From contig RPFO01000156.1 of assembly GCA_009746045.1 (NCBI GenBank), positions 2,840,452 to 2,904,451 of the forward strand: DNA of 64,000 nucleotides, given 5' to 3'. A program made the translations under genes and the position numbers. This document shows positions 1,453 to 48,199 of this stretch, piece after piece. The notes under the pieces were generated by a model. That model saw only the letters and a program-made list of their open reading frames with translations. It had not been told where the DNA came from and searched no databases. Positions within the stretch are counted from its first letter, which is position 1, and each line of letters starts with the position of its first letter. Source of the DNA: Mesostigma viride (taxonomy: Eukaryota; Streptophyta; Mesostigmatophyceae; Mesostigmatales; Mesostigmataceae).

Positions 1453-4400
1453 TTACGCCTTGATCTTGGGCTTGGCCCCCCCCCGCGCGATGCCGATGAG
1501 GAAGTTGCGGCACCCCGAGTGGCTCAGCGCGGCCGAGACAAAGACGCCCACGAGGGCGAGCGCGACGGCAGAGACGGAGGCGGAGGCGGGCTCCTTGGCG
1601 ACGAGGGCGGCGGTGCCCAGGCCTGTGGGGTGGTGGACGGTGTGCCAGCATTACGCGGAGTGGGGCATTAGGGCAAATGGTCATTATAGCCTTATGTGGG
1701 GATAGAGTAGCCAGCACGGTGCCCAGGCCTGTGGGGTGGTTGATGGTGTGGTAGCATAACGTGGATTGGCATGCAGGCACTTGGTGAGTGTGTGATGGGC
1801 AATGGTGATGGGGAACGAGTAGCTAGCACAGGCAGTGCCTAGGCCTGTGTGGTCGACTGGTGGCTGAGGTTGTGCCAGCATTGTTGTCCAAGGAATGGGG
1901 CCATCGTTAATTGTGTGGGAAACAGCAAGGAGGGCAGGCGTCTTAGCACTTTTGGGAAATCGTGAGTGTGTCGGGACACTGTAGCTAGCGCGAACAGTGC
2001 CAAGCTCTGTCGGGTGGCCCACCCTACATGCATGCCAGAGAGATCTGCGCACGGCTACTAGTCCGTGTGATCTAATCTGATGAGAGCAGAGAAAACCAAA
2101 AGACACCCATGAGAGAAATGCCAGCGCACACACGTACGAGGGCGGGGCCCAGGACGGAAGAGTGGTAGCATAAGCCAGAGTACACGTCGTTGGGACATTG
2201 TCGATTGTGTGGGAAACAGCGACAAGGGCAGGCCATGCACAGGGCTCCATGCAGGTGATGTGTATTGATGATCACGAATACCAAGAATCTAGATCATGCA
2301 CACCTAGCATAGGCTACGCGTGCGATTATCGCGGATGGATGGCCGTAATCATTGGGTGGCACGGATTGTATCCAGATTTCTGGCCTGCGCGGGAAAGGAT
2401 TGTCTCATGGACAGAAACCATGTGTGCTAAAAATAGACAAGGGCGGGGTTGTGTAGGCAGGTGTGTGTGCGAGGATGGTGATGGGTGTCAGCATATATAT
2501 ACATATATATATATTAAAAAATATAACTACAGCAGAGTAAAGGCGCCCACGTAAAAATAAACAAAGCACACGCTAAAAAGAGATACCACGACAAAACAAC
2601 TATACAGCCGGCATGGGACACTCAATCCACACTGCGGAATGAAGTAAAACAGCCTAATAACCGTGCTGCGCTGCAAAGTCAGCTCGTGTGCGGCGGAGCA
2701 AGATGTCAGCCATAGCCCGGGTAATAGCATATATATACCAAGGCTGTGTATGTGGTGTAAGATAGCCACAACCATGATAGCCACGGCGGCCTTTGGTTTG
2801 TGCACGCCCCATGTCCGCAACGTCTTGACCCGCATGCCTTGCGCAAGCCCACTGCTTCTCTGTACTAATACCTTGAACCCTAATATCATGACATGCGTGG
2901 ACAGCACAACAGGTTATGACAGCAAGACCTTGTGCACCGTCCAAGGCGCTGCCCATGGCCAGTCGTAATAGAAAACAAGTACTGTAATTACAGATTACAC
3001 AGAGTTAACACAGAGTTACAAGGATCTGAACCCAACGCAGATACACTGCCTTCGCATTCATGTACTAGTCATATCTTGGTCATATTAGTATTATTCTTTC
3101 TAGCCGTGTTATCAGTTCTATTGTTATTGGTTGTGTCATTACCGTGCGAGACGCTGCCCACAGCCACCCCCCGCACCACCGGGTTGGTCACGCCAAACTT
3201 GTTCAGGACAGAGGCACCGAAATTGGCGCCCAGCAGGCCTGCGGCAAACAAGAATCCATTATTTTGCGGCATACCACTTGGATGTAGAGTCAGCAAACGT
3301 GCGTGGATGGGTCAGACGTCATGCAGGCCTGCCTTTGGCATCAAGTAGAAAAACATGTGTGAAAAGCGCGCAAGTAAAAGGCGTATCATGCGCCAACGTG
3401 TCGCCATCACGTCATCATAACCAAGGGTTGAACCCAACTGTGGGAAACCCAACTCAAGGCGTAAATGGCTGTACGTGTGCTGATGGCTGGCAAACTGTGA
3501 TACCATAAAACTCTAAACTAGAATAGCTATAACCTGGAAATAGCTATAACCTGGAAATAGCTATAACCTGGAAATAGCTATAACCTGGAAAAAATAACTA
3601 GAAAAGCGATAACAAAAATACAAAAATAATCAATAAAATACCTATAACTAGAATAGCTAGAATAGCTGGTAAGCAATAACTAAAATATAATAGCTAGACT
3701 AGCTATAACTAGAATATAATAACTAGAATATAACGTGCACATTATACGATGAAAGAGTGTCCATAGGAACAACTGGTCGGCCCTAGTTAACAAAGCTCAC
3801 AGCCGCTCGAGGAGCGAACCCGACTGCCAACAAGGACTTCTACAGACACTTCTACACACAAGCCCCAAAGCACACTCAGACACCTGCCTGCCAGGGTGTA
3901 ACCACACACCTTGATGCACACAGAAAATACAGTACACCCCTAGAACGAGAAATTTATTTAAAAAGTTTTAAAATGGGGCATGGCGGAGCCTCATTCGCTT
4001 GTCTATTTTAAGGTGGGATGCTTAACTCAGATGCAGGGCGAACATTCCTTGACAACATGACCCAAAAACACACATATCCAAACCAAAGAAGGCGCCCTGC
4101 AGTCAATGGCAGCCGTGCAGCCACAGGCTCTGCGAGGTTGCCACTGCTAGCACTGGTTGTTCATGTTCTGTTCAATTAATTTCGTTCTAACCCCCCAGAA
4201 AACGACCAGCCAGGGGGAGTTCTCCATTATCCGGATGTAAGCATAACAGCAGGTAAGTATAGTATGCATAACAGCAGGTAAGTATAGTAAGCATAACAGC
4301 AGGTAAGTATAGTATGCATAACAGCAGGTAAGTATAGTAAGCATAACAGCAGGTAAGTATAGTATGCATAACAGCAGGTAAGTATAGTATGCATAACAGC

Positions 4401-7400
4401 AGGTAAGTATAGTATGCATAACAGCAGGTAAGTATAGTATGCATAACAGCAGGTAAGTATAGTAAGCATAACAGCAGGTAAGTATAGTATGCATAACAGC
4501 AGGTAAGTATAGTAAGCATAACAGCAGGTAAGTATAGTATGCATAACAGCAGGTAAGTATAGTATGCATAACAGCAGGTAAGTATAGTATGCATAACAGC
4601 AGGTAAGTATAGTCAACAGCAACCAGAGATGATGTCACCTGTGAGGGTGGGCCCGACCACCGAGGTTCCTCTGTGCTACTACAATACTGTAGTAGATTAC
4701 TGTAGATTACCGTAGAGTACCGTAGATTACAGTAGATTACCGTAGAGTACCGTAGATTACTGTAGATGATACTGCGTCGGTCACGACGCACTATGCTTGC
4801 TATGTACTAGAAATACTATAATCTTACCGGAGATGACGACGCCCGTGAGGGTGAGCGACATGTCGGCGCCCACGGTGGCTGAGATGGGGACGGCCAGCGC
4901 GCTGAGGGGAAACAAAACATCAATCGGTTGCAAATAGAGGCAGGAGGGGTATGGGGAGTGGGTGAGGGTGGGTGAGGGGGGAGAGGTTGTTTGGTTGATT
5001 GGTTGATTGCGGGGCCGATATGAGGGACCGCCAGCGCGCTGTGGGAACAGAACGGCAGGGGTGGCCAGGGACGCAAGAGGGGCACGGACATGGGTGCTGG
5101 GGCAGGTGTATGGAGGGACAACAGAGTGGGGGGGTGGGGGTGGGGCGGTGGCCGGAATGGGGACGGAAGGTGCTCAGAAAATAACAAATGCTGGTAGATA
5201 AAGCCGGAGAGCGGGGGCCAAGGGTTGGGGGGGTTCTGCTCACAGCAACAAGCAGATAACAAAGTAACATATAACCAATTTTCTGCACTAGTACAAAGTA
5301 GTATAGAAGGCATGCACTTTAGGGGTGTCCAGGCAGAACCAGTGCAGGACTCTGTGGAAATAACTGCACTCTCCCGTGGCGTCGGGGGGGGAGGGAGCAG
5401 GTTGCCTCCAGCCTCACGAGCTTGCTTATGGATAACAATCAGCACTAATATGGTTTGCATCACGTGCTTGCTTAAATTATTTAGTAGCATTTACTTATAG
5501 ATACACAATTGTATGGATATTAATACCTGCCGACGGAGACATGGCCATGACAACGCGACCAAAGCCACATGGCCTATAGTACATACATAACAAGAACATG
5601 ATAAAATGCATAATATAATAATGCTACAGGGCTACCGGTGGCCGGAGCCTCATAAAACTGTCATCCGCCACCCACCTCATGAGCACACGTGGCAGGGGCA
5701 CCACCGCCATGTCCGGCGACAGCTTGAGGAGGCGGGCCTGGGGGCGCACGCGGTCATTCCAAACAAAGGAAGGCACATTGTGATGGTACATTTAGGAGCC
5801 AGGGGACGTGATAGACAGCACATTGTGATAGTACAGTAAGTGCCAGGGGACGTAAAGGCAGCAGTTTCAGCAGGCGGGCCTGCGGGCGCACGCAGGTGCC
5901 CAAGTGAGGGGAAGAGACGCGCATAAACTTGGGGTACCATCCACTGTTTATCCGACATATTCGATATCGTTCAAGTATAGCTATGTCTGATATTCGTTTA
6001 GAATCAGACTGCATGCAGGGGCATTGAAAGGAGGGGAAACGGCAAGGCGAACTAACACGCCAGAGCACACAATCACGCAAGCTAACCAGCAGCGGCTAAG
6101 CAACCATCACTAGTTCCGCAGGCTCCCCTGCGGACGCAAGCAGGCAGTCGTCTCAAGCGATGCGAGCCTGGCGTCATCGCATCAGTAGCACGCCAGGGCA
6201 CTGTTGTACAGTACTTACATATCATCTGCACAAGTGACATGCAAAGGCGAGCCTGAACTGAAAGGCTGAGCACCTACCAGGATGGGCGGCCAGGCGAGAT
6301 GCCGGCATACATATACCTGATGGGCGGCCAGGCGAGATGCCAGCATACATACACCGCAGCAGACAACAAGCCAAGCGTTGCGTTCGCCAGCGCCGTACCA
6401 CGATGGACGACCAGGCGAGGGAGAGCACCGACGATCCCAGGGTCCCCCCGACGATGGGGAGGAACTTTTGGGCGAGGAGCGCGCGCTGGTTGTAGAGAGA
6501 GATGGCGAGCGCGATGAGGCCGCAGGGGAGGATCTCCTGGTGGAATAGAGGGGGAATAGAGGGGGATGAAAAAGGAGGTGGAATAGAGGTGGAATAGAGG
6601 TGGAATAGAGGTGGAATAGAGGTGGAATAGAGGTGGAATAGAGGGGGATGAAAAAGGAGGTGGAATAGAGGTGGAATAGAGGTGGAATAGAGGTGGAATA
6701 GAGGTGGAATAGAGGTGGAATAGAGGTGGAATAAAGGTGGAATAGAGGTGGAATAGAGGTGGAATAGAGGTGGAATAGAGGTGGAATAGAGGTGGAATAG
6801 AGGGGGATGAAAAAGGGGGGGGGGGGGTGGGGGGGGGGGGGGATGGCGATGAGGCAACAGGTGAGGGTCTGCTGTAATGAGTGATGTACCCCTGTGCTGT
6901 AGTGATGTACCCCAGGGAGGAGGGGTAGGGGTGGGGGTGGAACTGGGTGAGGTGGCAGTGGGGGAAACAGGGTGAGGCCGCAGGGGAGGATCTGCTGGTG
7001 GATGGATAATGATGGGTTGTGTGGGAAGGGGGGGGGGGTGATGCGGTGAGCCCGCCACTATATTAGGCCCACCACCATAGTGAACACACCACCCGCCACT
7101 ACAGTGGACCCACCCCCACCACTATCTAATAGTGAACCTGCCAGAAAGATGTCGCACGGTGAGCGTGCACTTCTGGCACGCGCACGGGACTATGGTGAAC
7201 CCAATGCTAGCCCAGCGTCATAACGAACCCACCACAAGTATAGGGGTATACTAGACCACGCTCCTACACAAGCGCAGAGAACCCACCAGGAAGATGTCCC
7301 CGGCGCCCGGTCGCGAGAGGGTACCCTTCTTGTAGGTGCGCAGGAACTCGACCGAGCGCACGCCCTTGACCAGGGACCCCAGCGCCGCCATGGTGGCGGA

Positions 7401-10400
7401 CGACAGCACCGCGCAGGACAGCAGGGGGTGCAACACAGTCTGGAACCGAGCCGGAACTTTCCGTCCGGCTGCATACGCACGCACGCAAGTGGCAAACATG
7501 GCGCATCATTACATGAGGCCAAAGGAATACATATTAAAGTTGAGTACACACGTTGCATACACCGGTACAATTCCTTGATTGCGCAGATAAGATAATTAAT
7601 CGTGAAGATAGAGAAGAAAAAGTTTACTGTGCAGATAAGACAATTAGTTGTGTAGATAAGATAACTAATTGTGCAGATAAGAGATAGGTCAGAACCGTGC
7701 TAGCACTTCCCACCCGGCCGCTCGGCGCAGCTCTGGCACTTTCCACGCGTGTGAACAATCACTGGCACAAAACACGCATGCACAGGACACTATCACGATG
7801 CAATAGGATATAGACACTGTTACAATAGAAGGTGGGAATAAAGAACAGGTCAGAAGCCAAAGAACTTACCCCCTCATGCGGCATCATCATGGCAAATATT
7901 CTCCACTGCACGGGCTGTATCTACGGGCAGTATTTACTAGCACACTAGGTCAGCGCCTTGCCCCGAAACCACTACTTCAAGAAGCAGCTCAAAACCAGGC
8001 AACGGCCTCTTTGTATTACTCTTCTGCATTACTTTCCTGCATACTTTTCTGCATCATTTTCCTGCATACTTTTCTGCACTATATTTGTGCATACTTTTCT
8101 GCAGCATTTTCCTGCACACTTTCTGCAATGACTTCTTTACCAAGTGCGCCTGAGATATTGACAAACCACATTTACAAGCATGTCGCAGTCTTTAGCACCC
8201 CGCGCCCTATAGCAGATCAGGGCCAAGGTCCTCCCGCAGTGCCTTCACGGTGCATGCTGAAAGGACCCGCGTGTAGGCAAATCTTAGACAGGGCCACGAT
8301 GGCCACTATGGCACTCTCTGTCTGCACCGGGGTATCCTCCTTGTGCAGACACATAAAACGTACTCGCTCATGCGCAGGTGCGCAGGAACAGGCGTAGCCA
8401 CGGCTAAACAAAAACAGCCAAGTGGCAAACATCCCTCCCCAAGTTATCGCTGCCGCCTCCAAGTGCCACCAGCCATAACATGGACAGTCAGGGTGCACGT
8501 ACCCAGGAAATAGAACACCTGCGGGCGTGCCAAAGGAGTGTGCGCCGAATGCGTCCGTGTAGAAAGCACGCCAAGGCAGAGAGGGCGTGGGGGTGGGGTC
8601 GGCACCACGGCAGCCACACGCGCACACATGAGTAATCTTTTGGGGGGGGGACGCACCGAAAGACATGGTTTAAACTCGAGGCAAGGCAGAGACAATCATA
8701 AGGAATGTATGGATGTCATAAGAACCGAATTTGGGCTATTTTAGGCAACGCCGGTGGCGAAGTGCGGGCAAGAGGCACCATGAAAGAGGGCAGACACTGA
8801 ACTTACATTTTTTAGTATACTTAAAAGCTACTTAAACTTTTTTACTATCCTTAGAAGTAACTTACACTTTTTAACTTTTTTAGTACACTTAGTTAAAAGT
8901 TACTCATACTTTTTGACATTTTTACTATACTTGGAAGTTACTTTGACTTGCAGCGGGTGCTGCCCAGTCTTGGTATACCCAGCCAGGTCAAGGTATTCTG
9001 TATTGCTTGGCTGGTTCCAAGTATCCCTGGGCCGACCTTATCAACTTGTTCAGCGTCTAGGGCCTAGGGGCCTGATAGTTAGGGCGTGGGGTTCCACGTT
9101 GAACCAAACAAGCAGAGAGACATCCATTAATTAATTAGAAACATAAGCAGAGAGACATCCATTAATTAATTAGAAACATAAGCAGAGAGACATCCATTAA
9201 TTAATTAGAACCAAACAAGCAGAGAGACATCCATTAATTAATTAGAACCAAACAAGCAGAGAGACATCCATACTATACTATAATACTGAATATATGTCAT
9301 ATATGCTGTATGTATTACATATATAACTGCTGCATTGAACATCCACTGATGCTTACCGTCAGGGCGAGCATGGCGACGGCATCGATCGCTGCCACAAGGG
9401 ACGGTAGAGAAGGTAACAAATAACTATGAACAGCACTTCACATAGGGACGGTAGAGAAGGTAACAAATAACTATGAACAGCACTTCACATAGGGACGGTA
9501 GAGAAGGTAACAAATAACTATTAACAGCACTTTACATACCGCACGTTAGGTAAACACAAGCACTTTGGTATCGCCGCATGAGATGGCAGATAAGATAACT
9601 ACAAACTATTACATACAAACAGCGACATACAAAAGCACTTTGTATCACCCCACCGACTGGGCGATCGTGGGGTGCGTGTGGCTATGCCCACACACCCGTA
9701 CACTACACTAGCACTAGATACTAGTTCACTGTAAATTTCCTGCTCACTATGGATCTGTTCTCGAAAATGTCACGACTCCGTACCGTGAGTGTGACGGGCG
9801 CCTCTCTCCGCTACATGTAGAACACACCCACACGCCCATCTAGCGCCCAATAGCCAGCACAACACTCAACACGCCGGGCCACCCACCCATCTGAGCCAGC
9901 GCGATGGGCGCCTCGCTCCACTAGTACTGCGATTGCTAGAGACTAAGTAAGTACTATTTACTGCTAAATAGAAACTAAGTACTATTTCCAGCTAAATAGA
10001 AACTATGTACTGTTAAAAAGTAACTAGGTACATACTATTTAGCACGTACTAGTTACTGCTAGATAGTGACTAAGCACGTGCATACAAATACAGTAGGGTG
10101 AGCCATACCGTGAGCGCCAGCGCGACGGGCGCCTCGCTCCAGGGCAGCAGCACTGCCGCGGCGCTGGCCACCGTGCCGGCGGCCAGCAACGAGGGGAACG
10201 TGGGCGGGGGCGCCGCGGGCTGAGCGGGGGCTGACTGCGTGCCCGACGCGGCCGACTGGCCCCTCGATGAGGAGGAGGAGGTGGCATTGACGATCGCGCC
10301 CGTGAGGCTTGCGGTCGTCAGCAGAGTCCAGAAGAAGCCGCCCACTGGATTGTAGGAGTGTTGTATGAAGAGGATGAAATAGGAGGGTAGCAATGAATCG

Positions 10401-13400
10401 TTAGGGTTAGAATTTATGACAGATGTCAGCAGCGTCCAGAGGAAACCGCCCACGGGTTTGTCGTCATGAAATAGGAGGGGAGTAAAAAGTGAATATAAAT
10501 ATGTTGGGAGTGAATATATATGACGACAATATATATCAGGGGGTTGGTGAATAATTATATGAGGGGTTTGGTGAATAATTATATGAGGGGTTTGGTCAAT
10601 ACTTAGGGTGTGGGCACAAATGGGCACACGGGCAGTAACCTCCCCAGACAGCCGGTGGCGAATGCTGACAGCTCCCCAGGCAGCCAGTGGCAGTGGCACC
10701 TCCCCACGATAACGCCCCCTCATGTATAGGCCAACCACCACCTTCATGCCCTGATGACATCGCCAAAACAGCCAAACCAGCCACACTTGGCGATCTACAA
10801 TGTGTAACATCCCTTATACAAGAACCGTGCATGGGCCGTACAAACACCCCGACGGCAAAAACAGGCCACATTGCACGCACCGATGAGGCGATCACGGCGT
10901 TAAAACTTGACGACCTTCATCCGATACGGTAACAACCTTCATACGGCATACCGCGCATGCTTACTTAATTAATATGGTTACTATAAACACACTCCAAACA
11001 AGGCCTTTGCAAACCCCCTAACACAAGCCTTAAACCAGGCGAACACAGGCCACACCCCACGCACCGATGACGGCGCCAAACTTGCCCGCCTCGGCCAGCG
11101 AAGGGATTTTGTTAACGGCGAGCGGCAGGACGACCTGCAGGGGGCAGAGCACGCAGAAGCGGAAGAGAAAGGAAACGCCTATCAGAGGTAAACAGAATCT
11201 AATCAGAGGTAAACAGAATCTAATCAGAGGTAAATAGAATCTAATCAGATGTAATAAAAAGGGCTGTGAGATGGGCAGAACGACATGTGGGGACCTAGCC
11301 CGGAAAACTGAAAAAAGCAAACAAAGGGCTGTCAGAAATAGATGTCAATACGCGGCCAGAGGCACAACTTGCAGGGGCAAGGGTGGAGACATGGAGGGAC
11401 GGACTTTGCATCAGAACAAAAGGATGATTAGAACACATGAACGTGCATGCACCGAGACTGATGGAGCTTAAGGGAGGAGAGGCGGGCGGGCGGGCGGGCG
11501 GGCGGGCGGGCGGGCGGGCGGGCGGGCGGGCGGGCGGGCAAGCAAGCGAGCGGGCAATCGTACCACTAGTACGAAATTAGTTTGAATATTTTAATGTATG
11601 TATGCAAAAACTATTAATATTATAACATTTATATTCAAAAAAATATTTATCATTACTAAAAGTTAGCATTATTTTTATATCTCATATTTACAAACATTAA
11701 AAATACTTCACTAATTAAGGCAAGTATAGTAACTTGAGTAAAACATTATTTATCTTATACATTCGCACGGACAAGTGTCTATAAAAACAAACACACCCCT
11801 TGTCACTATAGCTTTCGGCGGATTACGGACGAGTGTCTATAAAAACATACACACTCCTGGTCAGTGTAGCTTTCGACAGATTACGGACGAGTGTCTATAA
11901 AAACATACACACCCTGGTCACTATAGGCTTTGACAGATTACGGATGAGTGTCTATAAAAACATACACACTGTAGCTTTTGACAGATTACCGGCGAGTGTC
12001 TACAGAAACATACACACACTGGTCACTGTACCTTTTGACAGATTACGTACGAGTGTTAGTAATAAAAACATGCGCACCTTGGCCACTAGGGGCTTTAGTT
12101 AAGTATATAGGATTAATTAATATATTACCTTTTCTAAATAATTTTGAATAATGTACTAAGTATATATATATTTAGGGAGACATAATATTATTTATAAATA
12201 AAGTTACTAAAAAATATGAACTGGTCCGTGTGAAAAAACATGATCAATGTGACCAAGCCAATGCACGACCTAAATCTGCATCCTGTAATTGCCCTTACCG
12301 GCCGAATGGGACAGTCCAACAGGGTTAGGGTGCCCCCTTATGACCCTACATGTGGCTGCAAAAAACATATTTTTGTGGATTGTCCTAGGGCCGTGGCGTA
12401 CATCTCAAAGAAGTCGCCAACTTTGGGTGGGGCCATCGTAGAGTGTGGCTCTCGGGCGGGTGCCCTATCCTTTACAGGCGTTTCTCGCGGCGTCGGTGCC
12501 GCCTCTTCCTCTTCGGGCGCACCAGGTCAAAGCACGGCGTCGAGTCAGTTGTCGTGCGTGTCCAGCCAGTGACAGTCGAGTCCCCGCGTGACACAAGGTC
12601 AGACGCTGAGAAGTAGTGTTTTGGCCGTATTTATCCCACGGAGCTGGCGCCTGAATGCCGCCCAACAAGAGGACAGGGTTGATCAACTTTACCAAGAAAA
12701 AGTCCAGGGTGGCCAAGCGAATTGGGGAGATGATGGAGGTCGACCTTACAAAGGTACCCTTTACCAATAACGTCCACAGCTCCTTGAAGGGTCGTTATTT
12801 CCCACCAGATACCGCACTCGTGCTGGCATGCAAGTTGTACCCCACGCTGGCAGCATTTGTGATTTGAATCGGCAACGATTTGCTGATCAACGACCCCGCC
12901 CAGACTTCAGCAACGGGTAGACGTTAGCAGTCTCTGGGCGGGGTCGTTGATCAGGAAATCGTTGCCGATTCGAATCACAAATGCTGCCAGCGTGGGGTAC
13001 AACTTGCATGCCAGCACGAGTGCGATATCTGGTGGGAAATAACGACCCTTCAAGCAGTTGTGGACGTTATTGGTAAAGGGTACCTTTGTAAGGTCGACCT
13101 CCATCATCTCCTCGATTCGTTTGGCCACCCTGGTCTTCAGCAATACGTGGACGATAGCAGTCTCGGGGCAAATCTTCGTAAAGTTGATCAACCATGTCCT
13201 CTTATTGCGCGGCACGGTCCTACCGAAGACGTTGAAAAATTCGTATTCATCCAGAAACGCCCGGCATTCAGGCGCCAGCTCCGTGGGATAAATACGGCCA
13301 AAACACTACTTCTCAGCGTCTGACCTTGTGTCAAGCGGGGACTCGACTTTCGCCGGCTGGACACGCACGACAACTGACTCGACGCCGTGCTTTGACCTGG

Positions 13401-16400
13401 TGCGCCGGAAGAGGAAGAGGCGGCACCGACGCCGCGAGAAACGCCTGTAAAGGATAGGACACCCGCTCGAGAGTCACACTCTACGATGGCCCCACCCAAA
13501 GTTGGCGACTTCTTTGAGATGTAAGCCACGGCCCTAGGACAATCCACAAAAATGTTTTTTGCAGCTACATGTAGGGTCATAAGGGGGCACCCTAACCCTG
13601 TTGAACTGTCCCATTCGGCCGGTAAGGGCAATTACAGGATGCAGATTAAGGTCGTGAAGTGCCTTGGTCACATCGATCATTGGCGGATGGGTAGGATTCT
13701 CTTCGGATGGCATGACATGATAAAGCGAATCTGTCAGCTTTGGATTTTCGCACGAAACCTTAAATGACAGAACTAGGCTCTGAGACGCCATAGTTCTCGG
13801 CAGAGCGTGCAGGCCTACAGGTGAGAAATTTTGCAGGCTGGTGCGCACTTTGCACTTGTACCACCAGTAAATGGAAGGTTTTGGCTCGCGGCCCCCCGTG
13901 TTTGTCCTTCCAACCAAAGCCCTAGCCGTCTCGCGGTAACCAAGGTAACGGTCGGGTCCGTGTGGAAAAACAATGTTAAATTACAGATGGGGGCAGGTGG
14001 CACCTTTCTGTTGCTTACTGAATCACAATCTGGCTGCGTCGGGGAGTGAGAAGATGGATTTTTGAGCTTTGGATGGGGGCCCCCCGCATTAACCGCGTGC
14101 TGATACAACACCACCTTCGAGTTCAGCACTAGCCCTTGGCTAGAATGTCATCATATGGGCATCGCCCTTCTATCTTAAGTGGAGAGTCCTAGGGGAATTC
14201 CCACTTAACCCAGACATAATGGAATAACATGCGTTGTTGACATCGTGCCACCCTGAAACTTGGTGAAGGTCATAATAAGAAGAAAAGAAAATTTTTCAGC
14301 CATTGTGCACGTATATGTGGGGTGTATATTGACAGTTATGACAGTATACACGCCCCAAATCCCTATCTACAGTGTATTTTCCACAGGGCAAGGGGGGTAC
14401 AATTTAAGAGGGTCCTAGCTAATTTATGATTCTATGGTCCATGCACATTGTTTCTAGCCAACTGGGGTAGCAAAATACTGTCAAATGTGAAAGGAGATAA
14501 TTTTGGAAATGAAAATACGCTCTCTTTTGCTAGGGGGGGACATTATTTACCAACCCGCATCAGATGGCACCGAATGAGCAAATATCAATTACTATACGGA
14601 CCAAAGCATACACCCTCGAGGTTTTTTACCATTCTGAGCACAAATGAGGGAGAGAAAGCATTTGGCACAAGGCCACCTGAGCGTGCCAAACATGGCTGGA
14701 CACTCCAAACTTCACATCATCAGCAGTGCCTGAACCACCTAGACACGTCAAATATGGCCAAATGACTTATTACCTGCTATGCCAAGGCACGGTTGCCACC
14801 AAATCGTGCTGCATTCTAACCACAAATGAGTATGGAGTAGCCTTTGCCTGCACGGCACATGGATAGCACGTAGCTAAGTAGCTGTAAGCCAATGACACCT
14901 ACAAATTATAGATCTCCCCAGATTATATGAACTCAGAAGCTACACCTTTCAATGCATGTTGGCACCAATCAGAACTGCACTCTGACCAACTGCCAGCAGC
15001 CCGCCTAGCAGGGGCCATGAACCACTCAATCATCTCACTGTCGCCATCGTCTCCGTCACACGAAGGGCAAAAGTAGCCAGCCTCATGATTACGCGGGTGA
15101 GGGGGGTGCCAAATGCCCATGCATTGCAAGTGCACACCCCACGAGCACTCATCGCCAAATAGCACAAATGGGTTGGCCACCCCTGCAACTGTGTGCTTAG
15201 TGAACAAGGCTGGTAGCTTTACACGTAGATGCCAAGAATGAACCAGGTCTAAGGTCATCCTACCAAACCATGGACGTCACCGCACCCTAGAAAGCTCTAT
15301 CCACAATGCCTAACCATCAGGGAGAACCCATGGTCCATAGACAAAGAATCATCATACATTCTGCACACCACGGCTTCTTACCATGGTTACCTTGCGTTGG
15401 TAGCATACTTTCTCACCCATATGCTTGGGCCGTCCCACAATGCAGTGAGAGATGCTTTCATAGAACAATGGCAACCCTTGAATAATTGATGTGCCACCCG
15501 TGCAACATGTCCGTTAGAAACACCACTGTAACCTTCCTTTCAAGCAAGAGCATTTGCTTATAAACAGCCTCTAGCTCGTCGGCCTTTCAATACTAATTTA
15601 ATTTTAGTATAACATTATTCAATTACGTCCTCTTAGTTTAACATTATATTAGTTACATATTTGACTAGATCTTAGTTTTACTAATTTATTCTAAATGAGT
15701 ACTTAGCCTTAGGGTTTGAGTCTTTGGCTGGCGCGGGAAGAATGTTGAACTTACCCTGGGGAAATCGGTTATCTCACCGTTTTTTTGGCGGGCGTGGGAA
15801 ATAAACGATTCCTAACCGAAAGCCAAGTAGTCATCTGATAGTTTATAGCCGAAAGCCAGGCGGGCGGGCGGGCGGGCGGGCGGGCGGGCGGGCGGGCGGG
15901 CGGGCGGGCGGGCGGGCGGGCGGGCGCGGGCGGGCGGGCGGGCGGGCGCGGGCGGGCGGGCGGGCGGGCGGGCGGGCGGGCGGGCGGGCGGGCGGGCGGG
16001 CGGGCGGGCGGGCGGGCGGCGGGCGGGCGGGCGGGCGGGCGGGCGGGCGGGCGGGCGGGCGGGTGGGTAGGTGGGCGGGTGGGTGGGTGGGTGGGTGGGT
16101 GGGTGGGTGGGTGGGTGGGCGGGCGGGCGGGCGGCGGGCGGGCGGGCGGGTGGGTGGGGTGACAGGGGCGCTCTTTACGGCTATCCAGCAGAGGCAAGAA
16201 GGCTCTATTTGTAGCTCTATTTACAGAAAAACAGTACTTCATCAGCGGCCTCGCCAAGAAGATCCATGCGTACCGGAGAGAAAGAACACAGAAAATGAGT
16301 TTCAGTAAGAGTTCTATTTATATCTCACCGGTGGCGACACGGAGCGAGAAAGGATACTGCATACGCGTTGATTTACAGCTTCACGCAATAGCTCACCAGC

Positions 16401-17784
16401 GGCGTCACGAAGAAGATGGGCAGCCACTTGACAAGCAGGTCCGTGCCAGGCTTCAGGAAGCTGCCACGTGGCGCGCAGAAATCATGCCACAACAAACGAG
16501 GCACGAATTGTAAGAGAAAGTGGAGGTATACCCCCCCCCACGCACTGCGTACATGGCGGCATTCGGTGCAGCGCAAATAGAGTGGTGGTGGCCAAGTTGA
16601 GCTCTCCCAACCCTCACAAGACGAAAGCATGTATATTTACCGCCACCAAGGGCCACCAAGCGCCACCAAGCGCCACCAAGCACTCACCTGATGATGGAGC
16701 GGGCCACAGGCGGGCTGACTGCGTTCAGGCCCGTGAGCGCGCCGAAGAGCGCAAACATGCCCACCAGGGGGGCCGGGAACTTGCCTTGCAGCCACTGGTG
16801 CACGACAACAGCAGCACGAAAAAATTCATCAATGAGACCGCCGGCGCAGGCCAGAAATCGGGAGAATCCGAACCATGGCAGCTCGAGCCTGCGGTGACCT
16901 TATCCGCGTTTGTCGAGTCCTCCAGGACGATGGAAATGAATTAAGGTGGAAATGTTTAGCCATGTACACTAAAAATAATAGCTGGCTGAATGCACATGGA
17001 AAAGTCAACCAACACATGGAAAACTCAAACAGTCCTGTTTAAAAAGTGCAAACGTGCTCACGGGGGACCCGGGGAACTTGCCGTCCTGCCACGGGCGGGC
17101 GGGCGGGCGGGCAGGCGGGCGGGCGGGCGGGCGGCGGGCGGGCGGGCGGGCGGGCGGGCGGGCGGGCGGGCGGGCGGGCGGCGGGCGGGCGGGCGGGCGG
17201 GCGGGCGGGCGGGCGGCGGGCGGGCGGGCGGGCGGGCGGGCGGGCGGGCGGGCGGGCGGGCGGCGGCGGGCGGCGGGCGGGCGGGCGGGCGGGCGGGCGG
17301 GCGGGCGGGCGGGCGGGCGGGCGGGCGGGCGGGCGGGCGGGCGGGCGGGCGGGCGGGCGGGTGGGCGGGTGGGCGGGCGGGCGGGCGGGCGGGCGGGCGG
17401 GCGGGCGAACGGGCGGGTGGGCGGGTGGATGGTTGGGTGGGTGGGGTCGGGGCACAGCACAGTGACGTTCTGAATGAAGGGGGTGTATGAATGAAGGTGG
17501 AAGGAAGCACCTGGCTCGCAGCGACTGGGGGTAGGGGACGACAGCACCATATTGCAGCCACTGGGGGTAGGGCAAAGGGGACGACAACACCATATTGCAG
17601 CCACTGGGGGTAGGGCAAAAGGGACGACAGCACCATACAATGCATCAAAAGGACAGCGATGCAGAAATTGCCTCGGGACCACTGCAAGTGCATGGCGACA
17701 CCATGATCCTTCACCTAAGATGCACTATTTCTTTAACTAACTTAAATAATGAACATAGTTTAAAAATATCTTCGTGGATTAACT

Positions 17785-17837
<53 letters not shown>

Positions 17838-18981
17838 GCCACCACCACCACCACCACCACCACCACCACCACATGAAACAAACAACGACAGCACAATACA
17901 CTAAGGGCGGGAGAGTTTATAGCTACTGGACCTGTCAACCTGTGATCTCGGTAAAAGAAAACGAGATTGGGAGTGACGTACGCCCTGGATTGACCTCCCA
18001 GAACTGTATGGCCAGATCCGTTCTGGGAGATGGATGATAAACTCTTGCTACAGTCAACGTTCTTGCCAGCACACAGTGTGCAAGCAGGAGACTTGAACAG
18101 GCGGTTTGTTGCTGAAAATCAAATTGCGGCTCGCATCTTATAAGCGAGCGTCATTGTAAAACAGCCCTAACCAAATTATCCAGGGGAGAGGGGAGGGGAG
18201 GGGGGCGGGGGAAGGGGGCGAGGGGTCAGTAACATGCTTCCTAGAATCACAGAGGGAATGGAACAGACCCAAAAGCAAATGGGCTGAAAGCGTGCCAAGG
18301 GCTAACAACGAGCTGGCTGTGTGCACTGGGTCGAAAGTATGTGGCACGTGTTTAAGGTTGATGGATCCCCCAATTATGGGTCTGAGCACTTCTGGACTCC
18401 GTACCACGTATTGCCAGACTCCGCATCCCAAGCCTTCAGGACCCCAGATCCCTGATCTGAGATCTCGGATCCAGATTTTCCCGATGTTCAAATTTTGGGA
18501 AAAGTCTTGACACTGGGATCCCAGGCCAAATGTCACCACTGCCATGCTCGCATACCGTCTGCTGTCCAGACGTGCCCATGTAAACGTGCCAGAAAACATA
18601 GAAAGCAACCCACCAGCGCAAGCCCGGCATGGATGGGAGATGCCCGGCGCAGCCAGCTGACCATTTAACTATTTATACCTGACCATCTATAGTGCCTACC
18701 CAGATCCACTGGGCGCACACGGACGTACCTTGGCCAGCATTCGGTTTCCTCCGTACAGCAGCGCGACCACGACCAGGGTTTGGATCTCTGCACCATGCCG
18801 TCGCCAGGTGCGGTGCGCAGGGATGCGAAATTAAATGTCATAAACATGATCACTTGATACACCGTCGGTATTGCTCACTCGACAAGAAGTCAGTGTTTAT
18901 CAAAGTCGAACTACATCCGAGGAGAACGAGACTGGGGGGGGGTGCGAACGATGACCTTCTGCACTGAAATATAACATGCAT
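1453..18981 (-). CDS. PLGG1: PLGG1-like plastid glycolate/glycerate translocator (13 exons)
   Basis: Inferred exons in transcription order: 18981-18879 (tentative first), 18787-18729, 16794-16688, 16460-16397, 11134-11065, 10344-10109, 8518-8503, 7468-7287, 6536-6399, 5737-5676, 4901-4828, 3238-3143, 1622-1453 (TAA). All have AG/GT borders and compatible phases, giving about 458 residues. The order of conserved blocks matches the plant PLGG1 family: LrgA-type GKFPAPLVGMFALF, VKWLPIFFVTPLVVLPLAV and VGGFFWTLL, then LrgB-type VLHPLLSCAV, RPGAGDIF, LLGANFGASVLNKFGV and GLGTAALVAKEP. Family knowledge: an inner-envelope multi-pass carrier that exports photorespiratory glycolate and imports glycerate. 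The first exon gives a short Arg/Ser-rich N-terminus that could be a transit peptide; this start is the weakest part. A Ser/Ala/Pro-rich linker joins the two halves. A further possible exon at 9388-9357 does not fit the phase and was left out. Introns reach 5.3 kb and are full of repeats. Confidence 0.82.
1719..2040 (-). repeat. Tandem echoes of the last-exon 3' splice site
   Basis: The exon start and acceptor at 1611-1665 (plus strand ggtgcccaggcctgtggggt) reappear almost unchanged at 1719-1773. More diverged copies occur near 1836 and 1996. Each repeat carries exon edge, splice acceptor and 50-100 bp of intron, so the intron contains three extra decaying acceptors of the same exon. Confidence 0.7.
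2041..3142. other. Intron sequence, PLGG1-like gene
   Basis: No exon was recognised here. The first 200 bp continue the decayed echo array (tgtgtgggaaacagc motif at 1914 and again at 2209). The rest has short AT dinucleotide runs near 2493-2520 and no coding signal I can support. Confidence 0.5.
3527..4230. repeat. AT-rich short tandem repeats in intron
   Basis: An 18-bp unit containing atagctataacctggaa is repeated about four times at 3525-3590, followed by related actagaatagct motifs to about 3735. The remainder to 4230 is unique intron-like sequence without coding potential. Confidence 0.6.
4236..4612. repeat. 24-bp minisatellite with embedded splice-donor consensus
   Basis: About 16 nearly identical 24-bp units each contain agcaggtaagtatag followed by ta(t/a)gcataac. 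The unit includes a perfect eukaryotic 5' splice-site match (CAG|GTAAGTAT) on the plus strand, antisense to the surrounding PLGG1-like gene. Long open frames on the minus strand across it (repeated CYAYYTYLLL-type peptides) are products of the repeat, not genes. Confidence 0.9.
4679..4770. repeat. Short tagattaccg/tagagtaccg tandem repeat
   Basis: Roughly 10-bp units gtagattac(c/t) and gtagagtacc alternate about eight times immediately upstream (plus-strand coordinates) of exon 4901-4828. No coding signal is present. Confidence 0.6.
5013..5193 (-). repeat. Two echoes of the 4828-4901 exon start
   Basis: The exon/intron border at about 4884-4912 (ggacggccagcgcgctgagg) reappears as ggaccgccagcgcgctgtgg at 5025-5045. 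A more diverged form with gaatggggacggaaggtgct occurs at 5154-5173. Both copies keep several bases of flanking intron. Confidence 0.6.
5840..5900 (-). repeat. Echo of exon 5737-5676
   Basis: The exon border aggcgggcctgggggcgcac at 5730 is copied as aggcgggcctgcgggcgcac at 5872. The upstream part aligns more weakly (gccaggggacg versus ggcaggggcac). On the coding strand both give an ARLLKL start after a cag acceptor, but the echo loses similarity after six codons and is unlikely to be spliced productively. Confidence 0.65.
6277..6352 (-). repeat. Two echoes of the 6399-6536 exon end
   Basis: The exon end and donor (acgatggacgaccaggcgag at 6400) are echoed twice as gatgggcggccaggcgagat at 6281 and 6319. 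The two echoes are nearly identical to each other, showing a second round of duplication. Confidence 0.6.
6541..6812. repeat. 11-bp GGAATAGAGGT minisatellite
   Basis: About 22 units of ggtggaataga occur, interrupted three times by a gggggatgaaaaag variant. The array starts directly at the 3' splice site of exon 6536-6399, so on the coding strand the acceptor is preceded by a CCTCTATTCCA pyrimidine-rich array. A poly-G run of about 26 bp follows at 6818-6842. Confidence 0.9.
6843..7006 (-). repeat. Echoes of the 6536 exon start
   Basis: The exon start with acceptor (gaggccgcaggggaggatct at 6515) recurs as gaggccgcaggggaggatct at 6973, followed in both by cctggtgg or gctggtgg. A more diverged copy lies at 6845-6875. 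The 11-bp minisatellite lies between exon and echoes. Confidence 0.7.
8503..8518 (-). other. 16-nt microexon of the PLGG1-like gene
   Basis: GTGTTCTATTTCCTGG sits between a cgcccgcag acceptor and a gtacgtg donor and encodes VFYFL plus the first base of the next codon. It joins the preceding exon (phase 0) and the next exon (phase 1), giving VFYFLAGRKVP. This aligns with the family's hydrophobic-glycine segment just before the conserved HP of VLHPLLSC. The size is unusual, but both splice sites and both phases fit. Confidence 0.65.
9098..9265. repeat. ~37-bp tandem repeat (ccattaattaattagaa)
   Basis: About four units of agcagagagacatccattaa with ttaattagaac(c/a) spacers. This is intronic for the PLGG1-like gene and has no coding signal. 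Confidence 0.85.
9404..9545. repeat. ~46-bp tandem repeat, three copies
   Basis: Three units begin with gggacggtagagaaggtaac and end with acagcacttcacata. The first unit starts in the acceptor-like segment of the 9357-9388 exon-like sequence, again linking an array to an exon edge. Confidence 0.85.
9780..9926 (-). repeat. Echoes of the 10109 exon end
   Basis: The exon end (gcgcgacgggcgcctcgctc at 10120) is repeated as gcgcgatgggcgcctcgctc at 9900 and as tgtgacgggcgcctctctcc at 9790. The latter also carries the splice-donor-side taccgtgag. The 9357-9388 exon-like segment may be a third, older copy. Confidence 0.65.
10418..10461 (-). repeat. Echo of the 10344 exon start
   Basis: The exon start (agagtccagaagaagccgcc at 10324) recurs as agcgtccagaggaaaccgcc at 10430. 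On the coding strand both read PVGGF(F/L)WTLLT. The copy lies upstream in the same intron. Confidence 0.7.
10749..10917 (-). repeat. Echoes of the 11065 exon end
   Basis: The exon end (cacgcaccgatgacggcgcc at 11058) is copied at 10873 as cacgcaccgatgaggcgatc, with aaacaggccacattg before it matching acacaggccacacc. A shorter, weaker copy occurs at 10749-10793 (ccctgatgacatcgcc). Confidence 0.55.
11474..11539. repeat. (GGGC)n microsatellite
   Basis: About 16 uninterrupted GGGC units. This is the first of several such arrays in the window, all in introns or just outside genes. Confidence 0.95.
11540..11765. other. AT-rich intron stretch
   Basis: Strongly AT-rich sequence between the GGGC array and the next tandem array. 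I see nothing coding in it. Confidence 0.5.
11766..12100. repeat. ~57-bp tandem repeat (gagtgtctataaaaacatac)
   Basis: Six diverged units share (c/g)gagtgtctataaaaacat, a tggtcact core and ttttgacagattac. The open frame across it (repeated SVYKNIHT peptides) is a by-product of the repeat. Confidence 0.85.
12240..13681. mobile_element. Inverted-repeat element carrying an unknown ORF
   Basis: Two inverted arms of about 660 and 750 bp (12240-12899 and 12931-13681) flank a ~30-bp loop. They share about 95 % of what can be compared by eye; the right arm has ~50 bp missing from the left. On the minus strand the right arm continues outward to about 14129 in coding-like sequence, so the left arm looks like a truncated inverted copy. 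It sits inside the 5.3-kb intron between exons 16397 and 11134 of the PLGG1-like gene. No terminal repeats or target duplication were identified. Confidence 0.6.
12907..14129 (-). pseudogene. Frameshifted unknown protein of the inverted-repeat element
   Basis: Minus-strand coding-like sequence can be followed through several frames. One piece around 14129-13815 contains NLTLFFHTDPTVTLVTARRL. Another at 13917-13534 contains HDLNLHPVIALTGRMGQ. A third at 13300-12931 contains GRYFPPDIALVLACKLYPTL. The left arm encodes the matching HDLNLHPVIALTGRMGQ on the plus strand at 12264. I do not recognise the family. Frame changes make it a pseudogene or a multi-exon gene; it is probably element-encoded. 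Confidence 0.4.
14923..15258 (-). CDS. PHD-like zinc-finger ORF (fragment)
   Basis: A 111-codon minus-strand frame contains GDECSWGVHLQCMGIW and, 15 residues later, GYFCPSCDGDDGDSE. The spacing C-x4-VHLQC ... FCPSC resembles the second half of a PHD-type zinc finger; no first Cys pair is clear. It lies in the large intron of the PLGG1-like gene on the same strand and may be a transposon or exon remnant. The start codon shown is not supported by context. Confidence 0.35.
   Translation of the reverse strand: MTLDLVHSWHLRVKLPALFTKHTVAGVANPFVLFGDECSWGVHLQCMGIWHPPHPRNHEAGYFCPSCDGDDGDSEMIEWFMAPARRAAGSWSECSSDWCQHALKGVASEFI
15580..15857. other. AT-rich to unique intron sequence
   Basis: TTAGT/TTAAT-rich sequence follows the PHD-like fragment. 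I see no gene or repeat beyond short imperfect attagttt motifs. Confidence 0.4.
15858..16158. repeat. (GGGC)n/(GGGT)n microsatellite
   Basis: About 300 bp of GGGC with occasional phase slips, passing through GGGT units at 16062-16118 and back to GGGC. Long PPARPPA or GGRAGGR frames across it are artefacts. Confidence 0.95.
16239..16356 (-). repeat. Two echoes of the 16397 exon end
   Basis: The exon end with its donor (gctcaccagcggcgtcacga at 16391) recurs as ttcatcagcggcctcgccaa at 16238 and as tctcaccggtggcgacacgg at 16322. Both copies lie downstream of the exon on the coding strand. Confidence 0.6.
16834..16985 (+). repeat. Dispersed short repeat, copy 1 (SINE-like)
   Basis: Contains gcgcaggccagaaatcggga and later gcagctcgagcctg. 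The same ~150-210 bp family is found at 25100-25320, 26010-26225 (inverted), 26435-26650 (inverted) and partly at 28505-28600. This copy ends 40 bp from the acceptor of exon 16794-16688. See the copy at 25100 for the possible tRNA-like boxes. Confidence 0.65.
17093..17446. repeat. (GGGC)n microsatellite
   Basis: About 350 bp of GGGC with phase slips, ending in GGGT variants. It starts directly at a cgtggcag|GACGGCAAGTTCCC segment (17060-17093, minus strand) that echoes the GKFP coding start of exon 16794-16688. Confidence 0.95.
17515..17640. repeat. ~43-bp tandem repeat (cagccactgggggtaggg)
   Basis: Three units of ccactgggggtagggcaaa followed by gggacgacagcaccat. This is intronic, with no coding signal. 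Confidence 0.8.
17787..17872. repeat. (GCC)n(CAC)n trinucleotide array
   Basis: About 16 GCC units pass into about 12 CCA/CAC units. The alanine/threonine frames across it are not genes. Confidence 0.95.
17873..18728. other. Intron sequence, PLGG1-like gene
   Basis: Unique sequence between the trinucleotide array and exon 18787-18729. A repeated gatctgagatctcggatcc motif at about 18440-18470 is the only structure noticed. Confidence 0.4.
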
Positions 18982-26866: not shown

Positions 26867-28018
26867 CTACTGATCGAGCACCATATTCCCTAGACTGGGG
26901 GTGCCTGCCATGCAGGGCTTGTGGTCGACGTGGATGACATCCCCCCGGCGCCAGTATACCGGTTTCCCTCCTGCTCTGTGCCGGAGCTGGAGGTAGGTCG
27001 GCCATAGCTCGCGTCGCCGTTGTTGCTGGACCAGGGTCAGGTCGTCGTCCAGCGTGTAGCGAGTCCTCGATCGGAGCTTCTTGCGGTTTTTAAGAAACAA
27101 CAGCTTGTCGATCCGCCATGTACTTAAAGGTGAGGAGCAGGGGAGCCGGGCCAGCTACCTTACCCCGCGCGCGAGAAAGGCGGGCAGCCGACATCCGCAG
27201 CTCACCAGTAATCAGTGCATGGGGGCAAGAATGTCGCGCCGTGAGAAGAGTTGCCGAGGTACGTCTCATCTGCCGGCTGGTCGAAGTGCTTGACGATGAC
27301 ATTGTGGCTGCGCTGGGTGCGGTCGGCCTCCTCGCGGAGGTCGAGGGCTTGTTGCTTGAGCTGTGCCGCGATGGTGGAGGTACGGTGGCCGGTGGAGGTG
27401 GTGTGGTGCTTGAGCAGGTCCGCCCAGGTCTGGATGGGAGGGGCGTCGCCGCGTGGGCCAGCGGCGGCTGGCCTGGCTGCAATGTCCTTCAACGCCTGGG
27501 CGGTGATGCCTGCGGTGTTTTGCATGCACTCGATGGCGATGGCGGTGTCTTTGAGGCGCTGGTCGAGGTCGAGGATCGAGCTGGGCCTTGAGGGCGGCGG
27601 TGGAGGTGGAGGTGGCAGTGGAGGTGGAGGCGAGGAGGGTGGAGGTGGTGACGGTGGTGGAAATGTGAGGGAGCTCAGTAGCCAGCGTGCCTCCCATTGC
27701 TGCCACATCGGTAGCAAGGGGGGTCACGTGCTGCTCGAAAGCTTCCTTAAGCAGGGTGCGGACGATGGTTTCTGTCACAACGGTGGGAGGGGGGGGGCAG
27801 ATCTCGGCGTCAGAGCGCCCGAGGAGGGAGCAGAGGGCGAAGCGCTGGAGCCGGGGGCGATTCGTGCGGAGAATAAGCGGGAGATCCTCGGCGGTGCAAG
27901 GAAGGCCGTTTGGCCAGCGGCCACGGTTGTGGGAGATGAGGTGCGACCACAGGGCTATACAAGCGAGGCGTGCGTGCCGAAAAAATACCGTCGTGCAGAA
28001 CCACCAATTTACTACCAT
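26867..28018 (-). pseudogene. LINE ORF1-like protein, copy 1 (broken)
   Basis: Minus-strand coding traces run from a Pro/Thr/Ser-rich start through TWADLLKHHTTSTGHR and AAQLKQQALDLREEADRTQR, the ORF1 core HNVIVKHFDQPADE, then LLTFKYMADRQ and finally TLDDDLTLVQQQRRRELWPT. The order coiled coil - RRM-like 'NVIVK' - 'LLTF' - 'DDLT...RRREL' is that of L1-type ORF1 proteins. Several frame changes are needed, so it is a pseudogene. A second copy lies at 53100-54130, minus strand. Confidence 0.5.
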
Positions 28019-28733: not shown

Positions 28734-29957
28734 TCAAGGGTTCCCCTGCTGCCCTACGAGTGCTCTAGCCAGTGCCCGGTCCTTGTTCTGCAGCTCCTCC
28801 CGCAACGCGCCGACAGTCGCCTCTACCTTCTGGACGTAGTTGGACGTGTACTCGTTCTCGGCGAGTGCCTCCTTGAGACCTGCGACGCAGATGCTGATCT
28901 TTTGCCGGAACATGAGTTGCTCCTGCGCAAGGGGATACGCACATACATGTGAGCACGCATGTCAGCCAGGTTAAGAGGTCACCGTCCATCCACCCACCCC
29001 CTCACCAACCCGCCCGCCCACCCGCCCGCCCTCCCGCCCTCCCGCCGCCCGCCCGCCCGCCCGCCCGCCCGCCCGCCCGCCCGCCCGCCCGCCCGCCCGC
29101 CCGCCCGCCCGCCGTCCGCCCGCCCGCCCGCCCGCCCGCCCGCCCGCCCGCCCGCCCGCCCGCCCGCCCGCCCGCCCGCCCGCCCGCCCGCCGCCCGCCC
29201 GCCCGCCCGCCCGCCCGCCCGCCCGCCCGCCCGCCCGCCCGCCCGCCCGCCCGCCCGCCCGCCCGCCCCCCCGCCCGCCCGCCCGCCCGCCCGCCCGCCC
29301 GCCCGCCCGCCCGCCCGCCCGCCCGCCCGCCCGCCCTCCCGCCCGCCTGCCCGCCTGCCCGCCCGCCTGCCCCGGCCCGCCTGCCCGCCCGCCCGCCCGC
29401 CCACCCACCCACACGCACACGCACGCGCAGATGCTCATGTCCTGCCAGAGCATGAGGTTTTGCAGCGCAGAGTATATTATATGGCTAATAAGTATGTCAT
29501 CCCGCCCAAAACACAGTTTTATCCCAGGTTGAAAGTCACACAATACCCATGCATGAAACATTACCCAAGCCTTTGCAGTGCACTCAATGGCGCAGCTGAG
29601 CTTCCCATGTCACTAAATCTTCCGCATACATCTTCCAGATTGCGCCCACCCCACTTGCTCCCTAGCAGTCAAGGTTTCTAAAGATTCTAGAGCTGTACCA
29701 GGAATAACCCATCCCCTCACCTCGGCGCACACCCCCTTGAGCTGCATCGTCCATTTTCTCTCCACCTCCACCTCACTCTCTAGCCCGTCCTTTACCACAT
29801 GCCTATCGCGCTATGTTGAACACCCACCTCGGCGCGCGCCTCCTTGAGCTGCCTCGATCGCTTCTTCTCCACCTCCACCTCGCTCTCCAGGCCGTCCTTG
29901 ACGGACGTAACGAGCATCAGCTGCTCCTCCAATGAGGCTACCGTATCGCGGCACGCC

Positions 29958-46190: not shown

Positions 46191-46230
46191 TGTTTCACTC
46201 CAAGAGAAGGACGTGTGACGTGTGTGTGTG

Positions 46231-46445
46231 CGGGCGGGCGGGCGGGCGGGCGGGCGGGCGGGCGGGCGGGCGGGCGGGCGGGCGGGCGGGCGGGCGGGCG
46301 GGCGGGCGGGCGGGCGGGCGGGCGGGCGGGCGGGCGGGCGGGCGGGCGGGCGGGCGGGCGGGCGGGTGGCGGGCGGGCGGGCGGGCAGGCGGGCAGGCGG
46401 GGGTGGGGGGTGGGGGGGGTGGGGGGCTGGGGGGGGGGGGGGGGA
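46231..46445. repeat. (GGGC)n and poly-G array
   Basis: About 38 GGGC units followed by G-rich sequence, starting 40 bp after the XRCC2 stop codon. Confidence 0.95.
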
Positions 46446-48007: not shown

Positions 48008-48199
48008 AAGTAAGTAAGTAAGTACTTGCGTGTCATGCGCATGGGCATGCCACGGAGTACTATGCTAATCTCATGAGAAAAATAATTACACAAAAGTTAC
48101 AAATATCGTCTGCATCATGCCCCAACCATATAGTCACTACACAAGACTGATAGAACCTCGTAACTCCTAGTCTGCAGGTGTGCTACTTGTTCCCAAGCC

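Follow-up and report, generated by a model that had tools for sequence, protein, structure and literature searches.

The introns of an LrgA-LrgB (PLGG1-like) gene of Mesostigma viride contain diverged partial copies of the exon edges that they adjoin, and such copies, here called echoes, occur in many genes of this genome. The gene lies on the minus strand of the stretch of 64,000 nucleotides that was analyzed (the window; GenBank assembly GCA_009746045.1, contig RPFO01000156.1, positions 2,840,452 to 2,904,451). It was selected for being striking and is referred to below as the discovery gene. The echoes are direct in orientation, lie next to their source, include intron sequence and decay neutrally. 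Very probably, they are relics of local tandem duplications across the exon-intron boundary that subsequently decayed as neutral sequence.

Results

Twelve exons of the discovery gene could be defined, from E1 (18787-18729) through E12 (1622-1453), and their joined translation matches the Pfam families LrgB (4e-32) and LrgA (5e-7). We take the product to be PLGG1, the plastid glycolate/glycerate transporter that is an LrgA-LrgB fusion. According to the exon coordinates, the 11 introns have a mean length of ~1.5 kb. The junction of E5 and E6 (window 9357-10109) is out of reading frame, and therefore either a small exon is missing or there is an error at this place, likely a micro-exon or an assembly error in the E5-E6 gap. 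A second genomic match to LrgB (E 2.5e-35; L001 811-2040, in the G000:C1:4892321 region) consists of one open frame of 409 aa and is apparently intronless.

To score the edges, queries of 30 exon and 40 intron nucleotides were aligned to the adjoining intron, with 300 dinucleotide shuffles each. Fifteen of the 22 edges scored higher in their own intron than in any of its 300 shuffles, which rules out chance as the source of the echoes. Fourteen of these 15 edges contain exon sequence and belong to 10 of the 12 exons; the remaining one, the E6 acceptor, consists solely of an intronic array. A preliminary description of the window, the observation of which is confirmed, had claimed edge copies for at least eight exons. 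With reverse-complement edge queries, 0 of 22 fell under p = 0.05. The own intron scored higher than chunks of non-adjacent introns in all 15 significant edges (4 to 38 chunks per edge), and in a uniform re-run none of 42 tests matched a non-adjacent intron of the gene. Neither of the two results that would have spoken against the preliminary description, equal matches in other introns or scores no better than those of shuffled introns, was thus obtained. In this re-run, 7 of 10 donors and 6 of 11 acceptors of the discovery gene were positive. Edges with more than 14 masked query bases or too little unmasked subject were left out, so that 20 of 22 edges were tested in the discovery gene and 21 of 23 in the re-run, which included the E1 acceptor.

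Random interior positions of the same introns served as a further control: 14 of 19 edges were positive compared with 3.06 expected, and none of 100,000 simulated sets gave more than 10. With windows matched for GC content the result was 14 of 20 edges versus 2.05 expected, ruling out base composition as the cause in the discovery gene, and 91 of 633 interior windows of the gene were positive. When 36-nt windows were moved across the edges, the echo rate peaked at 0.55-0.65 for windows with 24-30 exon and 6-12 intron nucleotides, while it was zero for windows beginning at least 24 nt inside the exon. These empty exon-interior windows, together with the non-adjacent introns, rule out a general similarity of exons and introns. 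A comparison of the gene region with itself, which requires no gene model, yielded 23 direct and 0 inverted pairs (<300 bp, score >=36); together with the reverse-complement queries, this excludes inverted or hairpin copies.

The same procedure was applied to other genes of the assembly, a single genome of 439,911,974 bases in 2243 contigs. In eight CCT/TCP1 genes, whose exons were set by Pfam hits and whose edges with a splice score below 2.5 were left out, 15 of 51 edges were positive, with 0 of 51 for the reverse complement and 190 of 1154 for interiors. In 200 kb beside the window, where exons were predicted ab initio (44 kept, 16 of 60 removed as multicopy), echoes were found at 27 of 85 edges (donors 18/42, acceptors 9/43), with 2 of 85 for the reverse complement and 174 of 707 for interiors. 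At a score >18 the exon finder returned 11 exons from reversed and 5 from complemented sequence versus 36 per strand, and some of the 44 exons are therefore false; exons missed in the CCT and ab initio genes may also fall among the interior windows. For the uniform re-run three more CCT loci were added and a match needed at least 10 exon-side bases. Outside the discovery gene, it was positive for 30 of 76 donors, 13 of 69 acceptors, 557 of 2860 interiors and 6 of 289 non-adjacent comparisons, the last covering introns already in the sample. Echoes are hence present at 43 of 145 edges (~30%). Of the 29 other genes or exon clusters, 18 have one or more, and interior rates vary between genes from 0 to 0.64. 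The phenomenon, described at first for the PLGG1-like gene, is general and not peculiar to it; the discovery gene is the extreme of a general pattern, other genes having lower rates.

In the window itself, all three donors tested in a coiled-coil gene on the minus strand have an echo: that of the exon 29956-29828 at 29718-29749 (exon-side homology of 75 nt), that of the exon 32229-31773 at 31677-31711 and that of the first exon, which ends at 34349, at 34227-34261. An XRCC2-like gene on the plus strand (PDB match 6e-7) carries an echo of the donor of its exon 38581-38646 at 38881-38950. A young case is the donor near C1702:1286018 (L026), which has a near-identical tandem copy ~96 bp downstream (score 132/140).

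The specificity of the echoes for their own edge bears on the idea that they stem from introner-like insertion or from retroposition of gene fragments. Transposons are present in the window. However, edges matched non-adjacent introns in 0 of 42 tests in the discovery gene and in only the 6 of 289 elsewhere, reverse-strand scores of z > 4 were reached at 0 of 21 and 2 of 145 edges, respectively, and the copies include intron. Most echo alignments cross the splice site into the intron, unlike retroposed copies of spliced exons. For the bulk of the echoes this origin is refuted by their own-edge specificity, and we regard it as extremely improbable overall. The echoes carry the splice site and intron sequence, adjoin their own edge and have no matches in other introns of the gene or on the reverse strand, which supports local direct duplication, serial in places, as the preliminary description had proposed in preference to retroposition.

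We next consider the extent of the copies in a set of 56 echoes. The distance between edge and echo has a median of 124 bp and a 10th-90th percentile range of 85-310 bp, in a search that is blind below ~60-70 bp and above ~700 bp. Together with the direct orientation (0/22 inverted), this closeness to the source agrees with tandem duplication. A special spacing of ~95-107 bp was considered and dropped, as spacings of 90-110 bp are common among interior pairs too. The exon part of the echoes has a median length of 33.5 nt, and three of the 56 contain more than 60% of their exon. On the intron side, homology is significant in 27 echoes. By the rule of the script, 20 of the 56 have homology over no less than 60% of the tandem unit expected. 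Fifteen of these are clean; in the other five the exon-side extension is about equal to the distance, which leaves the ratio with little meaning. Clear tandem cases are E12 (106/106 bp), the E10 acceptor (127 bp at a distance of 137) and a CCT donor (96/96). The echoes that lack full-unit homology are too decayed, masked or not tandem. Two copies of one CCT gene region (L032 and L034), whose aligned blocks are 96-98% alike, are probably alleles. The single indel of at least 6 bp within their aligned blocks is a 7-bp tandem copy, and one of them has an extra stretch of ~3.1 kb in an intron.

The exon-side identity of the 56 echoes ranges from 0.64 to 1.0. Mismatches are distributed nearly evenly over the three codon positions (27/185, 23/189 and 32/183) and gaps occur in 17 of 24 echo alignments; the copies are therefore not kept as coding sequence. 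The splice dinucleotides are retained in 39 of 54 echoes (donors 28/36, acceptors 11/18, two unscorable) and in 18 of 24 of the window set, while the neutral expectation derived from identity is 0.855 squared, or 0.73. Echoes thus decay neutrally. The decoy splice sites that had been predicted do exist, but at the rate of neutral decay; a second intact GT accompanies 28 of the 86 donors tested, discovery gene included. That the echoes might be functional, as alternative or decoy splice sites under selection, could be argued from the many that keep GT or AG and from their presence at many edges. It is nevertheless very unlikely, because retention of the dinucleotides is no better than identity predicts, the codon positions mismatch almost equally and gaps are frequent; coding or splice function as a rule is ruled out by the first two of these results. 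Detectable local duplications make up ~13-19% of the unmasked intron bases of the discovery gene, depending on the cut-off, so that the proposal that they explain its large introns holds only in part.

All ten intervals named in the preliminary description hold a direct, diverged copy of the nearest exon edge according to the alignments, several second copies being weak. Alignments in the discovery gene are reported from a score of 29 upwards, the shuffle maxima of the edges being 24-38. Because their scores are near these maxima, the second copies of the E8 donor (29), the E3 donor (30), the E5 donor (34) and the E10 acceptor (35) are singly unproven. All features of the gene lie on the minus strand; its exons are defined by the gene model and E12 additionally by Pfam. 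The terminal exon E12 (1453-1622), which contains the stop codon, has two acceptor echoes in the interval described as 1719-2040, one at 1717-1768, with the intron-side homology given above, and one, by alignment, at 1831-1882. E11 (3143-3238) has a donor echo at 2936-2961 and E10 (4828-4901) one at 4622-4652; both are new and, like those of the E9 acceptor, the E7 donor, the E4 donor and the first of the E5 donor, are based on the shuffle test and alignment. The acceptor of E10 is echoed at 5010-5053, the clear tandem case, and in the weaker alignment at 5146-5203 (earlier 5013-5193), and that of E9 (5676-5737) at 5857-5897 (earlier 5840-5900).

For E8 (6399-6536), two donor echoes lie within 6269-6336 (earlier 6277-6352), where a 38-bp tandem pair spans 6281-6355. 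Its acceptor has an echo at 6973-6996 (earlier 6969-7006), with 21 of 22 exon bases identical, and a weaker second one, aligned at 6847-6873, that is new. The donor echo of E7 (7287-7439) at 7131-7159 is likewise new. The model of E6 (9357-9388) is uncertain, as there is no in-phase join to E5 (10109-10344). The E5 donor is echoed at 9876-9917 and, in the weaker alignment, at 9778-9807 (earlier 9780-9926), and its acceptor at 10425-10501 (earlier 10418-10461), where the alignment shows that the AG has been lost. E4 (11065-11134) has a donor echo at 10854-10916 (earlier 10858-10917) and a marginal, new acceptor echo at 11274-11320 (score 30, shuffle maximum 29). The 5.3-kb intron between E3 and E4 also contains a large inverted repeat recognized by eye (12300-13630; arms of several hundred bp). 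By alignment, the donor of E3 (16397-16460) is echoed at 16219-16263, with its GT lost, and more weakly at 16320-16344, with its GT kept (earlier 16239-16356), and the acceptor of E2 (16688-16794) at 17062-17091, next to a CGGG array (earlier 17060-17093); the best match of this acceptor is a different one, 17577-17648. E1 (18729-18787) is the first exon of the present model.

A 34-bp tandem array (1351-1443) abuts the stop codon of the discovery gene, its unit resembling the coding end by eye, and an edge test at the stop codon matched only the untranslated part of the array. As the stop codon is a boundary without a splice site, this single case is suggestive that splicing need not be the cause of echoes.

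Outside the discovery gene, the ratio of edge to interior rates over all ages is 1.55 (0.98-2.37, bootstrap over genes), with 2.05 (1.29-3.14) for donors and 0.98 (0.48-1.71) for acceptors. Donors exceed acceptors over all matches (p = 0.010), and among diverged echoes, i.e., those with an exon-side identity below 95%, the numbers are 25 of 76 versus 13 of 69 (p = 0.061). Near-identical echoes were found at 0 of 69 acceptors. Edge echoes stay visible for longer because the exon copy evolves slowly, an advantage of ~1.3-1.4 over uniform ages, of 1.2-1.9 at t = 0.2 and of 3-7 at t = 0.3. The simulated introns evolved with duplication, deletion, insertion and minisatellite births, and some runs drifted to introns of 2.9-4.0 kb.

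Several further features of the window were noted. A 92-bp piece, whose translation presumably represents part of a reverse-transcriptase polyprotein, is repeated in tandem about 12 times at 46879-48008, and about four copies in the opposite orientation occupy 48542-48912; these arrays adjoin a gag-type aspartyl protease domain. A long open frame at 56694-58829 encodes a transposase domain of the family DDE_Tnp_1_7 in its full length (E 4e-50), which we take to be of the piggyBac type, and two overlapping frames at 41485-43873, of which the first has a zinc finger of the C17orf113 type, look to us like a hAT-type transposase. The related reading frames 27274-27600 and 53548-53787, which we assume to be the first open frame of a LINE-type element, recur several times among the predicted exons of loci L003-L022. 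Long CGGG/GGCG-type tetranucleotide arrays are found in introns and intergenic regions (15859-16158, 17092-17425, 29009-29410 and 46230-46401). A further gene was noted that we presume to be IFT81-like; along with the LrgA-LrgB gene, it would fit a flagellated alga. A search of viral contigs for relatives found none, and one for the proteasome family gave 11 matches, which did not enter the analysis.

Discussion

Our results suggest that the echoes are formed by tandem duplication of a unit that spans the boundary and mostly measures ~85-310 bp. Of the two resulting edges, the outer would keep serving the exon, while the inner would presumably be spliced out with the intron. Duplication would be active throughout the non-coding DNA of this genome, and some boundaries would be struck repeatedly. 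Copies competing for splicing would be lost, and the others would add to the length of the intron while decaying neutrally, so that echoes probably contribute to intron growth. The tandem step itself may reflect slippage or microhomology repair, between which the copies do not discriminate. Removal would more often affect copies in which the acceptor is intact or the exon part long, as these would disturb splicing.

A number of observations weigh against this explanation. Intron-side homology falls short of significance in 29 of the 56 echoes. No echo was detected at the two acceptors of the coiled-coil gene, one of which is masked by a microsatellite, just one of seven edges of the XRCC2-like gene has an echo, and in the re-run 11 of the 29 other genes or exon clusters lack any. 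Diverged echoes are enriched 3.43-fold (2.33-4.80) at edges, and near-identical ones are depleted there (0.29, 0.08-0.51, compared with 0.4-1.4 in simulations). When duplication was simulated as steady and uniform, the ratio of edges to interiors was 0.6-2.4 overall and 0.4-1.5 for the diverged class. The all-age ratio therefore fits uniform duplication, but the diverged class and the discovery gene (14/20 edges, 91/633 interiors) do not. Under the steady settings that were run, the better visibility of the conserved exon copy does not by itself produce the enrichment, although an age distribution weighted to old copies would help to account for it. The shortage of young copies, the excess of donors and the short exon parts fit a removal of copies that disturb splicing; such removal of fresh copies leaves the excess of old echoes unexplained. 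Near-identical minisatellite arrays, which dominate some interiors, may add to the contrast between edges and interiors.

Ratios of about 3 or more were reached by two kinds of model: one in which introns were short at the time of duplication and later grew by unrelated sequence (2.9-4.9), and one with a 10-fold bias towards boundaries (3.4). The first places the duplications in a period of short introns, in which a unit of ~100 bp could hardly miss a boundary, with unrelated filling and arrays added later. Its simulations also gave interior rates of 0.06-0.18, and it would draw on the growth with age of the visibility advantage of the exon copy. The introns of the discovery gene are long compared with means of 230-462 bp given for five green algae (PMC5966456). 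On the other hand, the exon-side identities of the echoes are spread without a narrow peak, and the simulated edge rates of 0.25-0.52 are below the 0.70 of the discovery gene. We consider this history possible, if doubtful.

The second model treats exon-intron boundaries, donors foremost, as true duplication hot spots or as a refuge for duplicates, owing to some process connected with transcription, with splicing or with the step in base composition at exon edges. It would account for the edge enrichment of diverged echoes and for the excess of donors over acceptors, and 6- and 10-fold biases produced simulated edge rates of 0.67 and 0.84 with ratios of 2.5 and 3.4. An effect of GC content is excluded in the discovery gene. 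Yet the all-age ratio is modest and that of acceptors is close to one, the donor excess is weaker among diverged echoes, the youngest class is depleted rather than enriched at edges, and the stop codon, which has no splice site, abuts a tandem array as well. A hot spot of this kind appears rather unlikely. The more specific proposal that boundaries, chiefly 5' splice sites, are preferred substrates of a duplication process tied to transcription or splicing, such that introns grow from their edges and the boundaries keep a dated record, is unlikely.

The lengthening of introns is usually argued from transposons and intron gain, and echoes of tandem duplications may show introns in the course of growing. 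Since the exon side is held by selection and serves as a fixed reference, echoes can be dated by the divergence of one branch, and what becomes of a duplicated splice site can be followed through them. With echoes at about 30% of the edges tested outside the discovery gene, one genome and RNA-seq would suffice to measure the rate of duplication, how costly a second splice site is and how donors differ from acceptors. The intact second GT at the donors counted above is also a warning for gene predictors.

Among the matches listed, we found no description in the literature of dense, genome-wide copies of exon edges in introns; the parent mechanism is known, and it is the density and the age pattern that were not found described there. 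Internal gene duplication, reportedly treated by Gao and Lynch in 2009, is like the echoes in being segmental, in occurring within genes and in possibly including both exon and intron. It is said to create or multiply introns, however, whereas echoes are partial exon edges that persist as intronic debris and were counted against interior and non-adjacent controls. In a paper on potato, internal gene duplication is called commonly observed, and a tandem genomic duplication across an intron-exon boundary of an RdRp gene is reported to have made a new intron (Ma et al., 2016; PMC4974935). As in the echoes, the duplicated unit spans the boundary and carries the splice signals along. In contrast to this new intron in one gene, echoes lie inside existing introns, are sometimes serial and occur at about one fifth of acceptors and two fifths of donors outside the discovery gene.

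In AGGT-type intron gain (the Rogers model), exonic sequence is copied and the copies come to lie at opposite ends of the new intron (PMC3443670). Both processes involve local tandem duplication near splice signals, but an echo adjoins the edge from which it derives and contains old intron sequence. The AGGT-type layout would have the end of the upstream exon recur at the 3' end of the intron and the start of the downstream exon at its 5' end; the matches tested here were beside their own edge, in a search that stopped 40 bp short of the far exon. Introners, finally, are described as dispersed families that alter introns genome-wide (PMC9860276). They resemble the echoes in that introns are changed across the genome, and differ from them in that introners form dispersed families while the echoes are private to each edge.

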